Source: Spirochaetaceae bacterium (lineage in GTDB: Bacteria; Spirochaetota; Spirochaetia; Treponematales; Breznakiellaceae). Taken from it: a stretch of 64,000 bases of DNA. Made by a program: the position numbers and the translations under genes. The first letter of the stretch is position 1. Each line of letters begins with the position of its first letter. Positions 31,100 through 44,567 of the stretch are shown here, piece after piece. The stretch is taken from positions 1 through 64,000 of the forward strand of contig JAISLT010000101.1 of NCBI GenBank assembly GCA_031277165.1, read 5' to 3'. Under the pieces are notes generated by a model. That model was not told the DNA's origin. It saw only the letters and a program-made list of their open reading frames with translations, and made no database searches.

Positions 31100-31129
31100 T
31101 GTGCTAAATTACTTGTTTTGGAGGAAGAG

Positions 31130-32302
31130 ATGAAAAAGGAGTTGATTTTTCCTGTGGCTTTTGTACTCTGTGCATTGGCGCTTATTACCGGTCTTACCGG
31201 CTGCGGCCCCAAGGAACAGGTCATAAAGATCGGATTCAGCATCCCCCTAACCGGGGACAACCCCATGGTCGGGGAAGGTTCAAAAAATACCGGCGAAATT
31301 ATCAAAGAGCAGATTAACGCCGCCGGCGGCCTCGACGTGAATGGGACCAAGTATAAGCTGGAATTTATTTACCTTGATAACGAGCTCAAGGCGGAAAGCG
31401 CCGTTTTAACCGTTACCCAGCTTATTGATCAAAACAGGGTTTTGGCCGTCATCGGACCCCAAGGTTCGGGCCGGGCCATCCCCGCCGGTGAAGTCTGCAA
31501 CGACAGCAAAACCCCCATGGTTTCCGCCTGGTCCACCAATCCGGATACTACAAAAAACAGGCCCTACGTATTCCGGGCCTGCTTTATCGATCCCTTCCAG
31601 GCCCCCGTGGCGGCCCGGTTTACCAAGGAAAAATTCGGCGTTAGTAAAGTAGCCATACTGTACAATGTGGAAGACGATTATTCCAAAACCCTGGCGGAAC
31701 TGTACCGGGATTCCTGGGAAGCGAGCTACGGAGAGGTAGTTGCCTGGGAAAGTTTTGGACAGAAAGATCAGGATTTTAACGCCCAGCTTACCAACGTAAT
31801 GGCCTCCGGTGCCGAAATCCTCTATGTACCGGTGTATTATAACTTCCTTGGCAACATCGTTCCCCAGGCCAAATCCCTGGGCTGGGATAAGCCTATTATG
31901 GGCGCCGATGCCTGGGGTTCCGCGGATCTGTGGAAGGTAAGCAACGGTTCGGTGGCGGGGTATTACTTTACCACCCATTATGCCGCCGCCGGTGCGGTGG
32001 GCAAAACCAAGGAATTTATTGACACCTACAATGCCAAGTACGGGTACATTCCCGACGATGTGGCGGCCCTTACCTACGATGCGGTTAACATTGTACTGCA
32101 GTCCATCCAGAATGCGGGAATTTCCGGAGACCTCGAGCAGGACAGGGATAATCTTAAAGACGCCATCGCAGCACTTAAAAACTTTGACGGCATCACCGGA
32201 AAAATGAGTTTTACCCCGGACGGCGACCCCCAGAAGGAAGCCGTGGTGGTTAGGATCAGCGAGTCCGGCGAATTTGTCTTTGAAGCCAGCCTGGCGCCCT
32301 AG
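31130..32302 (+). CDS. livK: Branched-chain amino-acid-type ABC transporter substrate-binding lipoprotein
   Basis: 390 aa, start ATG 31130 with GGAGG upstream. Lipoprotein signal MKKELIFPVAFVLCALALIT with LTGC (Cys 25). The rest is a type I periplasmic binding protein of the leucine/isoleucine/valine family (IGFSIPLTGDN, INAAGGLDVNGTKYKLEF, VIGPQGSGRAIP). It delivers an amino acid or related small ligand to LivHMGF. It is the first gene of a six-gene operon; a paralogue follows directly. The ligand could be another amide or amino acid, given the neighbouring phosphonate genes. Confidence 0.9.
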   Translation: MKKELIFPVAFVLCALALITGLTGCGPKEQVIKIGFSIPLTGDNPMVGEGSKNTGEIIKEQINAAGGLDVNGTKYKLEFIYLDNELKAESAVLTVTQLIDQNRVLAVIGPQGSGRAIPAGEVCNDSKTPMVSAWSTNPDTTKNRPYVFRACFIDPFQAPVAARFTKEKFGVSKVAILYNVEDDYSKTLAELYRDSWEASYGEVVAWESFGQKDQDFNAQLTNVMASGAEILYVPVYYNFLGNIVPQAKSLGWDKPIMGADAWGSADLWKVSNGSVAGYYFTTHYAAAGAVGKTKEFIDTYNAKYGYIPDDVAALTYDAVNIVLQSIQNAGISGDLEQDRDNLKDAIAALKNFDGITGKMSFTPDGDPQKEAVVVRISESGEFVFEASLAP

Positions 32303-32388
32303 GTTTTAAAACCCTTAACCCGGGATGGACACTGCGCGGCATAGGTAGTAACCGCCGCGGGTGCCCCATTTCCGGGGATGTTAACCCC

Positions 32389-33555
32389 ATGAAACGTGTT
32401 TTTCTTAGTATTTCTACAATTCTTTTGTTTTTCTCCCTTGCCGGGGGATACTTGGAAGAGATCGTAATAGGCTTTAATCTGCCCCTAACGGAAAGCGAAA
32501 GCCTTGGATCCATTGGAGAAGAGGCCAAAAACGCCGCGGAAATGATCCGCGGGCAGATCGACGCCGCCGGGGGCCTTGAAGTAAAGGGCCTGCGTTACCC
32601 CCTTAGATTTATATATGCCAATAACGAAGCGGAGGCCGGCGGCGCCGTTCGCGCCGCCCTCCGCCTGGTGGAAGAAGAACAGGTTCTAGCCGTGGTGGGC
32701 CCCCTGGGTTCAGGCCGGGCCATCCCCGCCGGAGAAGTCTGTAACCACAGTGAAACTCCGATGATCTCTCCATGGTCTACCAACCCGGAAACCACAAGGA
32801 ACAGACCCTTTGTGTTCCGGACCTGTTTTCTTGATCCCTTCCAGGCCCCCGGGGCAGCCCGGTTTACCAAGGAAAAATTCGCCGTCAGCAAAGCAGCCAT
32901 ACTGTACAATGGGGACGACGATTATTCCAAAACCTTGGCGGAACTGTACCGGGATTCCTGGAATACAAACTACGGAGAGGTAGTTGCCTGGGAAAGTTTT
33001 GAGCAGAAAGATCAGGATTTTAACGCCCAGCTTACCAACATAATGGCCTCCGGCGCCGAAATTCTCTATCTGCCGGTGTATTATAATTTTCTTGGCCCCA
33101 TTGTTCCCCAGGCCAAGTCCCTGGGCTGGGACAAGCCTATTATGGGCGCCGATGCCTGGGGTTCCGCGGATCTGTGGAACATAAGCGGCGGTTCGGTGGC
33201 GGGATATTATTTTACCACCCATTTTGTTTCCAGCGGATTGCCCGGCCGGGGCTCGGAATTTATTAAGGAATATGAAAGACTCTATGGAGAAACCCCCTCC
33301 GATGTGGGGGCCCTAACCTATGACTCGGTCATGCTGTACCTTGGGGCCCTTCAGCGGGCGGGAATTTCCGGGGTTTTGAAAGCGGATAGAAGGGCCCTGC
33401 AAAGGGCCCTGGCAGAGACGGTTGATTTTAACGGGGTTGCGGGAAAAATAGCCCGGTTTGATAGAATGGGGGATCCGGTAAAAGAAATAATTGTAGCCAA
33501 AATAAATTCTCAAGGACGGTTTGTGTATGAGGCGGCCATACCACCCGGGAGGTAA
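32389..33555 (+). CDS. Second LivK-like substrate-binding protein (tandem paralogue)
   Basis: 388 aa, same fold as the preceding protein. The middle (about 150-285) is nearly identical to it, also at third codon positions, while both ends have diverged; this suggests gene conversion. Its signal MKRVFLSISTILLFFSLAGG has no lipobox Cys, so it is probably free in the periplasm rather than lipid-anchored. The ligand pocket may differ, broadening transport by the same permease. There is no strong Shine-Dalgarno upstream. Confidence 0.87.
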   Translation: MKRVFLSISTILLFFSLAGGYLEEIVIGFNLPLTESESLGSIGEEAKNAAEMIRGQIDAAGGLEVKGLRYPLRFIYANNEAEAGGAVRAALRLVEEEQVLAVVGPLGSGRAIPAGEVCNHSETPMISPWSTNPETTRNRPFVFRTCFLDPFQAPGAARFTKEKFAVSKAAILYNGDDDYSKTLAELYRDSWNTNYGEVVAWESFEQKDQDFNAQLTNIMASGAEILYLPVYYNFLGPIVPQAKSLGWDKPIMGADAWGSADLWNISGGSVAGYYFTTHFVSSGLPGRGSEFIKEYERLYGETPSDVGALTYDSVMLYLGALQRAGISGVLKADRRALQRALAETVDFNGVAGKIARFDRMGDPVKEIIVAKINSQGRFVYEAAIPPGR

Positions 33556-37111: not shown

Positions 37112-37185
37112 TGGGCGATGGGGGACTTGAACCCACGACCCCTAGCATGTCAAGCTAGTGCTCTCACCAACTGAGCTAACCGCCC
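37112..37185 (-). tRNA. tRNA-Val (anticodon GAC)
   Basis: Read on the minus strand it starts GGGCGGTTAGCTCAGTTGGT. The acceptor stem GGGCGGT pairs with ATCGCCC, the D arm is GCTC/GAGC, the anticodon arm is CTAGC-TTGACAT-GCTAG with GAC, and the T loop is TTCAAGT. One mismatch is seen in the T stem. CCA is not encoded. Confidence 0.95.
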
Positions 37186-37193
37186 CAACTCAA

Positions 37194-37603
37194 GCGCCGC
37201 GAAGCGGCGTTATTTCACATAGTTCCGCAGGGCCAGGAACCGGCACAGGCCGCCGCACCCCGCAACTGCGGACGGGGTTTATCCCGTCCAGCGTTCCGCC
37301 TCCGGGAACGCTTTAGGTTTTCCCGGCGGGAAAACTCAAGAAAGCGCCGCGAAGCGGCGTTATTTCACATAATTCCGCAGGGCCAGGAACCGGCACAAGC
37401 CGCCGCACCCCGCAACTGCGGACGGGGTTGATCCCGTCCAGCGTTCCGCCTCCGGGAACGCTTTAGGTTTTCCCGGCGGGAAAACTCAAGAAATCGCCGC
37501 GAAGCGGCGTTATTTCACATAGTTCCGCAGGGCCAGGAACCGGCACAAGCCGCCGCACCCCGCAACTGCGGACGGGGTTGATCCCGTCCAGCGTTCCGCC
37601 TCC
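37194..37603. repeat. R5: 150-bp tandem array, 2.7 copies, hairpin-rich
   Basis: Copies begin at 37194, 37344 and 37494 (period exactly 150 bp). The third is cut at about 37603, where R1b begins. Copies differ at only a few bases. Each contains at least five stems: CGCCGC/GCGGCG followed by TTATTT, TCCGCAG/CTGCGGA, GACGGG/CCCGTC, GCGTTCC/GGGAACGC and TTTTCCCG/CGGGAAAA. The array lies directly upstream of tRNA-Val in its transcription direction. No protein family is recognised. Confidence 0.9.
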
Positions 37604-37604
37604 T

Positions 37605-37788
37605 CTAGGAGCTTGTTGCGCTTTGCACATAACACCCTTAAAAATCGCCTGACCGGCGATTTTTACCTTGCAAACTCCATCGGACAAAGGTCTGCAGCAG
37701 CCCGGTAATCGTGGTTTTTATGGCTTTTTCCAACGAAAAAGACATAAAAACCTACCAGTGCAACAGGCTGCTAGGAGCCTGCTGCTAG
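37605..37788. repeat. Repeat R1, copy b: CTAG-bounded hairpin element
   Basis: CTAG at 37605-37608 and 37771-37774, with a further CTAG at 37785-37788. The ends are GAGCTTGTTGCGC and, inverted, CAGCCTGTTGCAC. The terminator stem here is AAAAATCGCC/GGCGATTTTT, different in sequence from copy a but still paired. On the minus strand the outermost TAG (37787-37785) is the cheX stop codon. Confidence 0.82.
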
Positions 37789-38252
37789 GCCCTTTCCCGA
37801 ATGGCGACGTTTATCTCAATTTTGCCGTTGGTTCCCAATTCCATAGGTACTATCAAGGCTTCCACTTCCTGGTTAGAGATTTCCATATTTTCGCCGGAAA
37901 ATAAGGCCGGCGGGGTAAGATCGAATTTAAAACCCAGATCGTGGAGCTTGGTTACCGCCTGGGCGGTAATCATATTGGCCAGTTCGGTAATGGTAGCCTT
38001 GGCAAGATCGTCAAGCTGGGTAAATGTGTCGTTATTCATTGCTCCGGCTATATTAAGGGCCGTCTCCTTAGTCATGTCAAAGAGAACCCGGCCCTCTACA
38101 TCACCGGCAAGGCCCACCAATGCGGCGACCCCCATGATGGACATGGTCGTAGATTTAAGATACAGATCACCCCGTTTAACTTCGGTGTTTATAACTTCTT
38201 TTAAAACATTAAATGCTGCTTCAACAAAGGGATTGATATACTCAACGCGCAT
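37785..38252 (-). CDS. cheX: CheX-type CheY-P phosphatase
   Basis: 155 aa, cytoplasmic. It dephosphorylates CheY-P, as known for spirochaete chemotaxis. The CheC/CheX-type helix with Glu-x-x-Asn is ITELANMITAQAVTKL, and VPMELGTNGKIEINVAI is the typical C-terminal strand. AGGAG precedes ATG. It is the third gene after cheA and the cheW-cheR fusion on the minus strand. The TAG stop belongs to repeat R1b. Confidence 0.92.
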   Translation of the reverse strand: MRVEYINPFVEAAFNVLKEVINTEVKRGDLYLKSTTMSIMGVAALVGLAGDVEGRVLFDMTKETALNIAGAMNNDTFTQLDDLAKATITELANMITAQAVTKLHDLGFKFDLTPPALFSGENMEISNQEVEALIVPMELGTNGKIEINVAIRERA

Positions 38253-44366: not shown

Positions 44367-44398
44367 TATGGGACCCGGCCTTCCAATGAAAATAATCC

Positions 44399-44567
44399 CA
44401 GCATCCTGTTGCGCTTGTAGGGTTGACAGCTCTTTTCGTTGAAAAAGCCATCAAAACCACGATTAGCGGGCTGCTGCGGACCTTTGGTCCGATGGGGTTT
44501 GCAAAGTAAAAAATCGCCTGCCCGGCGATTTTAAGGGTTTTATGCGCGAAGCGGCAAACTCCTGGCA
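44399..44567. repeat. Repeat R1, copy c (reverse orientation)
   Basis: Reverse-orientation copy of the R1b subtype: CATCCTGTTGCGC at one end, GCGAAGCGGCAAACTCC at the other. The terminator stem ATCGCC/GGCGAT is flanked by A and T runs. The CTAG ends have decayed and it does not supply a stop codon. Confidence 0.75.

Follow-up and report, generated by a model that had tools for sequence, protein, structure and literature searches.

The array upstream of tRNA-Val(GAC)

The window, the whole 64,000-nucleotide stretch analysed here, is part of an assembly of 2.48 Mb that is 82% complete, in which it corresponds to contig C106. Its minus strand carries a cheX-like gene, a tandem array of hairpin-rich units and a tRNA-Val(GAC) gene into which the array leads, with the dispersed repeat R1b lying between cheX and the array (Table 1). 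The order of cheX, element and tRNA-Val is kept in several genera. TRF described the array (37192-37603) as 2.7 copies of a 150-bp period with 98% matches and a score of 796, and a repeat search placed the copies at 37192, 37342 and 37492, spaced 150/150, with identities of 98% and 79%, the third copy being partial. The units, which lie on the strand of the tRNA, are 97-98% identical. The initial annotation, in which two full and one partial near-identical units begin 9 bp from the tRNA and are cut off by R1b, is confirmed on each of these points: the tRNA 5' end at 37185 lies 9 nt from the first hairpin and 6 nt from the repeat register, and R1b truncates the array at about 37604. R1b itself is roughly 170 bp long and occurs in tens of copies in the assembly at 74-92% identity, with a second copy in the window at 44396-44563. 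Elsewhere in the window (31118-33555), two adjacent and closely similar substrate-binding protein genes belong to an apparent branched-chain amino acid ABC transporter operon.

Table 1. Positions of the array, its structural parts and the neighbouring features in the window.
Feature	Position	Strand	Evidence or note
tRNA-Val(GAC), array leads into gene	37112..37185	-	ARAGORN; Rfam RF00005, 65.8 bits
X' partner GGGC, tRNA-Val bases 1-4	37182..37185	-	
Unit 3, full, tRNA-proximal	37192..37341 (model core 37193-37304)	-	TRF, repeat search; model R1 115 bits, E 2e-22
P3, terminal hairpin of unit 3, CGCCGC-TTC-GCGGCG	37195..37209	-	Covarying stem
X' of unit 3 (GCCC), guide-like, complementary to tRNA-Val 5' end	37230..37233	-	Covariation (P4)
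P0, enclosing P1: GGAAC 37293-37297 and GTTCC 37236-37240	37236..37297	-	
P1 hairpin of unit 3, GGACGGGATAAACCCCGTCC	37270..37289	-	Family loop consensus CTAAAG
Extra hairpin between units, GTTTTCCCGCCGGGAAAAC	37317..37335	-	
Unit 2, full	37342..37491 (model core 37343-37454)	-	TRF, repeat search; model R1 112.8 bits
Unit 1, partial, without extra left hairpin, truncated by R1b	37492..37603	-	TRF, repeat search; model R1 108.7 bits
R1b dispersed repeat, between array and cheX	37604..37784	.	Tens of genome copies
cheX-like gene, upstream of array	37785..38252	-	

Copies of the terminal hairpin P3 recur in the other two units at 37345-37359 and 37495-37509. The extra hairpin between units is typical of a 150-bp class found at Val, Thr, Phe and Trp genes and is missing from a class of about 118 bp. 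The minus strand of the array (435 nt) folds with a z score of -5.8, beating all 100 of 100 dinucleotide shuffles, and single units give z scores of -2.5 to -3.7. A promoter search of the window stretch at the array found none, and tRNA-Val may here be read from the che operon.

A minus-strand frame with a protein-like ending, GLCRFLALRNYVK followed by a stop and then a GC hairpin, had led the initial annotation to propose a duplicated gene 3' end with its terminator. The frame exists but is not kept: non-triplet indels and in-frame stop codons disrupt it in relatives, the supposedly coding part is spanned by covarying stems, and the upstream cheX gene is intact and separate. We regard this origin as scarcely credible.

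Distribution of the unit

A DNA search of the genome found the 150-bp unit at the window array only. A related array (L199; period 117, 2.4 copies) precedes tRNA-Leu(CAA), with a promoter-like TTGTGC..TACAGT directly upstream of it, and one unit lies at the end of contig C121. Most of the other tRNA genes read in this genome are without a unit and have a sigma-70-like promoter a short way upstream. By blastn the element was found in 11 other genomes of the family, mostly just before tRNA-Val(GAC) and usually between cheX and the tRNA. The tRNA-Val locus holds three copies in the window, two in G093, G100 and G172, one in G103, G050, G070 and G071, and zero in both congeners (G001 and G002) as well as in G069, G143, G150, G156, G177 and others; in G195 the P3 part is missing and X', the guide-like segment of the unit, abuts the tRNA. 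Units are 93-98% identical inside one array (76% in L041) compared to 57-88% across species, from which it follows that arrays expand or are homogenised within lineages.

Several loci show further rearrangements. The L041 region of G172 holds tRNA-Val(GAC) twice inside 1.8 kb with the element before both, and the units of L040 and L094 are broken by other short sequences, such as the insert of about 110 bp in each of the two units at tRNA-Val in G175, as if other small repeats insert there. Two genomes of one genus differ between cheX and tRNA-Val: in G073 (L227) the interval holds a unit whose hairpins are duplicated, and no promoter is visible, and in G069 (L228) it has a promoter and no unit.

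A covariance model (R1) built on the 114-nt unit core matched 74 of 200 genomes of the family, which comprises termite-gut Treponema and relatives, with up to 18 units per genome. In an order-wide sample 57 of 394 genomes were positive, all 57 of them in this spirochaete family. Among named genomes, the exact hairpin pattern occurs mainly in termite-gut Treponema, Spirochaetaceae and Spirochaetia; single matches to the P3 pattern in Nitrosomonadales, Massilia, Peptococcaceae and Niabella scored 19-22 bits and were taken as chance. Distant blastn gave no match to the unit in plasmids and phages, and none of the viral contigs had the P3 hairpin. When the array loci were compared with Rfam, the tRNA alone exceeded its gathering score and no family matched the units, and a literature search limited to open-access papers yielded no account of such repeats. 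The initial annotation had found no match to a class it knew, and the unit did not turn out to belong to any known IS or to a gene family. Judged from the sequence searches, the units appear to form a previously unnamed hairpin-rich family restricted to this spirochaete family. An Rfam match of another kind, a Flavo-1 RNA (RF01705; 49.5 bits, above the gathering score), lies at L088:7212-7294 in G092, a genome of the same family, 6 kb from an array.

Placement at tRNA genes and promoters

A survey of about 100 fetched regions gave 116 arrays of 1-9 head-to-tail units. Using a criterion of 12 nt, 54 of these stop just short of a tRNA or tmRNA gene of the same orientation, at a distance of 1-9 nt, and the genes behind them are those for Leu (24), Thr (9), Phe (8), Ser (5), Val (3), Trp (2), Lys (1), Arg (1) and tmRNA (1); the first set of tRNA-Val loci is additional to these 54. 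The other 62 arrays have no tRNA behind them, and some are species-specific dispersed copies (G092). A sigma-70-like promoter (at least 9/12, no more than 110 nt upstream) precedes 26 of 53 tRNA-linked arrays (2.9±1.6 in shuffled sequence), and the same criterion finds one at 7 of the 62 non-tRNA arrays (3.0±1.6 in shuffles). The tRNA-linked arrays are therefore flanked by the promoter on one side and the tRNA on the other, and transcription through them is expected; they probably represent a transcribed tRNA leader. An impression by eye that non-tRNA arrays are placed before promoters was dropped as the enrichment was weak (5/59 vs 2.0±1.4), and the idea of a general -10 box within the unit, suggested by L199, received no support from column frequencies.

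Conserved fold and pairing with the flank

Mutual information calculated without a preset structure, from 118 non-redundant units and their flanks, recovered four helices, P1, P3, P0 and P4, the last formed by X' (just after P0) with bases beyond P3. In 50 tRNA-linked units the nested arrangement P0(P1) P4(P3) scores 0.498 for covariation, compared to 0.175±0.011 in shuffled data and no more than 0.115 with slid partners, and double-change cells number 217 against 70. P4 is lower in this nested-structure score because X' is one base apart in the two unit classes. Compensatory change is illustrated by P0, where GGAAC/GTTCC becomes GGCGC/GCGCC in relatives. Comparison thus supports a fold with three internal helices per unit and one more that reaches into the flank; the five or more stems per unit first counted are seen in a single fold. 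The loops CTAAAG (P1) and CTTRACG (P3) and an AAC foot (C 100%, A 91%, A 78%) are near-invariant in the family.

At least four exactly complementary bases link X' and flank in 53 of 56 tRNA-linked units. The mean complementarity of these units is 4.07 (3.17±0.10 with permuted flanks), that of non-tRNA arrays is 4.79 (3.43±0.16), and the X' of inner units matches the next unit with a mean of 3.96 (3.26±0.13). The flank/X' pairs differ between genes, being GGGC/GCCC at Val, AGCC/GGCT at Phe and Thr, AGGC/GCCT at Trp, GCGT/ACGC at Leu(CAA), GAGC/GCTC at Ser and ATGG/CCAT at tmRNA. The partner of X' mostly starts 7-9 nt past the model end regardless of where the tRNA begins, which is 1-9 nt past the same point; it stands at a fixed distance of about 8 nt beyond P3. 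Direct repeats of P3 plus this target flank the units.

One explanation of these features is a riboregulator in the pre-tRNA leader, in which X' would pair with the 5' strand of the acceptor stem and delay maturation while the unit's own copy competes for X', and tandem units would grade the control of tRNA supply. It would account for the fixed same-strand position before tRNA genes and even tmRNA, the promoter upstream of the array, the complementarity of X' to the tRNA 5' region and the conservation of the tRNA-Val element across genera. We nevertheless consider it rather doubtful, since many non-tRNA units obey the same X'/flank rule, the distance of P4 is fixed to P3 and not to the tRNA start, and most tRNA genes of its own genome lack the element, as does the tRNA-Val locus in both congeners. 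The base pairs of the helices provide a further argument.

Selection at the DNA or RNA level

RNA helices tolerate G-U pairs. In P0, P1 and P3, 93% of 2001 stem cells are Watson-Crick, and G-T (32) is no commoner than A-C (30), which suggests selection or correction at the DNA level. The acceptor stems of 98 distinct tRNAs at the same loci gave 74 G-T and no A-C (Fisher p = 4e-13), an A-C count somewhat lowered by ARAGORN's preference for canonical pairs and by the 5-of-7 filter that was applied, and the share of G-T is 11% in these stems compared to 1.6% in the unit stems. As a candidate structured RNA leader, the unit shows strong covariation but lacks the G-U tolerance expected of its covarying helices. 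This unlikeness to tRNA stems at the same loci counts against a leader riboregulator, and also against the tandem small RNA of the initial annotation, although the tRNA-linked arrays, about half of which have a promoter upstream, are probably transcribed and might give such an RNA. The pattern points to unit stems that are selected or corrected as DNA rather than as an RNA fold.

The same G-T pattern could, at least for P1 and P3, result from template-switch repair of palindromes without any function. The unit might accordingly be a passive structured repeat that derives from an old hairpin of the leader, multiplied through slippage or through unequal crossing-over between direct repeats, with neither mobility nor function and with its palindromes maintained by template-switch mutation. 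Such a repeat would be consistent with identity within arrays far above that between species and with the direct repeats of P3 and target around the units, and palindrome correction predicts equal numbers of G-T and A-C. It leaves the near-invariant loops and foot, the long-range pairing of X' with the flank and the occurrence of units at many unrelated tRNA genes and dispersed sites without explanation, and we judge it improbable.

Comparison with known systems

In IS200/IS605 elements such as IS608, and in REP sequences, guides 5' of a hairpin pair with the cleavage sites and can be reset, and REP hairpins have a conserved GTAG at their 5' foot (PMC8266576, PMC5934647). The unit resembles REP/BIME with TnpA_REP (RAYT) and the ends of IS200/IS605 elements (IS608, ISDra2) in being a dispersed palindromic DNA hairpin, in having a tetranucleotide guide 5' of the hairpin that pairs with 3' sequence at a fixed distance, and in its conserved 5'-foot motif. 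It differs in that the foot is AAC instead of GTAG, in its length (115-150 nt) and two more helices, in its head-to-tail tandem arrangement anchored at tRNA genes, and in a guide that changes from flank to flank and is separated from the foot by about 20 nt. A Y1 transposase is moreover missing from many carriers of the unit.

The STAXI motif (RF01728) is structured, occurs in 2-3 tandem copies and is suspected to be single-stranded DNA (PMC2864571). Our units share the tandem structured organisation and the suspected single-stranded form, but STAXI consists of pseudoknots near genes for single-strand DNA-binding proteins and integrases in Enterobacteriales, has no link to tRNA genes, and has no Rfam match here. 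The rtT repeats of the E. coli tyrT operon (RF00391) are tandem, lie 3' of the tRNA and include the tRNA 3' end. They are alike in arrangement, in length and in adjoining a tRNA gene, whereas our units lie upstream, at many tRNA genes, and have no Rfam match. Ty3 and Dictyostelium TRE5, which are eukaryotic retroelements, are placed just upstream of many different tRNA genes, as the units are, but the units are non-coding, bacterial and of other structure. Termite-leu RNA (RF01730) is known from the termite hindgut only (PMC2864571), a confinement like that of the units; its best match was 31.9 bits against a cut-off of 51, so that no genome passes, and its weak matches do not overlap the units in the same orientation. 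Two other resemblances were rejected: a T-box-like AGGGTG..CCGCGG is not conserved in relatives, and an origin from a tRNA pseudogene, suggested by a unit length close to that of tRNA plus leader, is at odds with conserved helices that form no cloverleaf.

Of the origins first proposed, an array of recombination sites comes closest in spirit, given the head-to-tail units, the copy number that varies between species and the guide/target tetranucleotide, although any such sites are not of the attC type suggested with it. Integron attC sites without cassettes would share with the units their arrangement in arrays and recognition as a folded single strand, the AAC at the P3 foot resembles the RYYYAAC end of attC, and tyrosine recombinases related to integron integrases occur in all 13 genomes tested. 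However, only the 5' side is core-like (RAYYAAC-like), the 3' GTTRRRY core being unconserved with G at the first position in 16%, and no gene cassettes lie between units. The enzymes argue the same way, and we hold attC sites to be very unlikely.

Candidate enzymes

All 13 of the genomes tested, each a unit carrier, encode an Xer/IntI-like tyrosine recombinase of about 400-480 aa with an N-terminal extension (L278-L281, L282-L289). No protein in these genomes reached the 265-bit cut-off of the integron integrase model TIGR02249; two tested whole scored 211 and 221 bits. No unit was found near the recombinase genes examined.

Y1 transposases (PF01797) were not found in the genome of the window (G000) or in the element-rich G103, G178, G175, G100, G153 and G150, which are MAGs of 66-92% completeness, and are present in G187, G172, G092, G070, G143 and G093. 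G092 has 12 RAYT-like Y1 genes, two of them no more than 1 kb away from a unit, and it also carries mosaics of other palindromic repeats (GGTGCCAGGCACC and others; L262 and L263, on contigs C112 and C40). RAYT was rejected as the mobiliser because Y1 genes are missing from many carriers and the Y1 loci of G092 bear other repeats.

Proposed origin of the arrays

By analogy with IS200/IS605 and REP, the unit may be a non-autonomous DNA repeat that folds as a single strand and carries a guide/target tetranucleotide, the reading that we prefer and for which we see an even chance. The unit would fold as single-stranded DNA, X' would serve as a guide and pair, in the manner of those elements, with a target tetranucleotide located at the 3' junction, and a putative single-strand recombinase would act on it in trans. 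Arrays would grow or shrink by reuse of one target or by recombination between identical stretches of P3 and target. Insertion between promoter and tRNA would be tolerated because transcription would run through the leader and tRNA processing would cut it away. In the window, an array of this kind would have been left with two full units and one partial unit after a later R1b insertion removed its upstream part.

Several observations count against a mobile DNA repeat. No Y1 transposase was detected in several element-rich carriers, and the rarity of G-T pairs could stem from template-switch correction of palindromes. Within one genome X' matches a different sequence at each locus, so simple guide-directed insertion would need a guide that is renewed with every insertion or later held to its match. 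The match would arise by renewal of the guide at insertion or by later selection for pairing, and the second of these would favour the leader riboregulator. Conservation of the tRNA-Val element in several genera suggests a kept function. A more specific form of the mobile repeat, in which a resettable or matched guide in the folded single-stranded unit targets the starts of tRNA and tmRNA genes, the arrays become their leader, and an enzyme other than Y1 (for example Xer/IntI-like) is responsible, is offered as a tentative possibility.

Where bacterial mobile elements exploit tRNA genes, they usually do so at the 3' end. If the repeat is mobile as proposed, it would represent a second way of colonising tRNA genes, precisely before the 5' ends of many of them, and its X' and flank sequences would provide natural pairs of guide and target for DNA insertion that is directed by base pairing and needs no RNA. 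If instead the units regulate the pre-tRNA leader, this spirochaete family would have a family-wide leader control of its tRNA and tmRNA supply.
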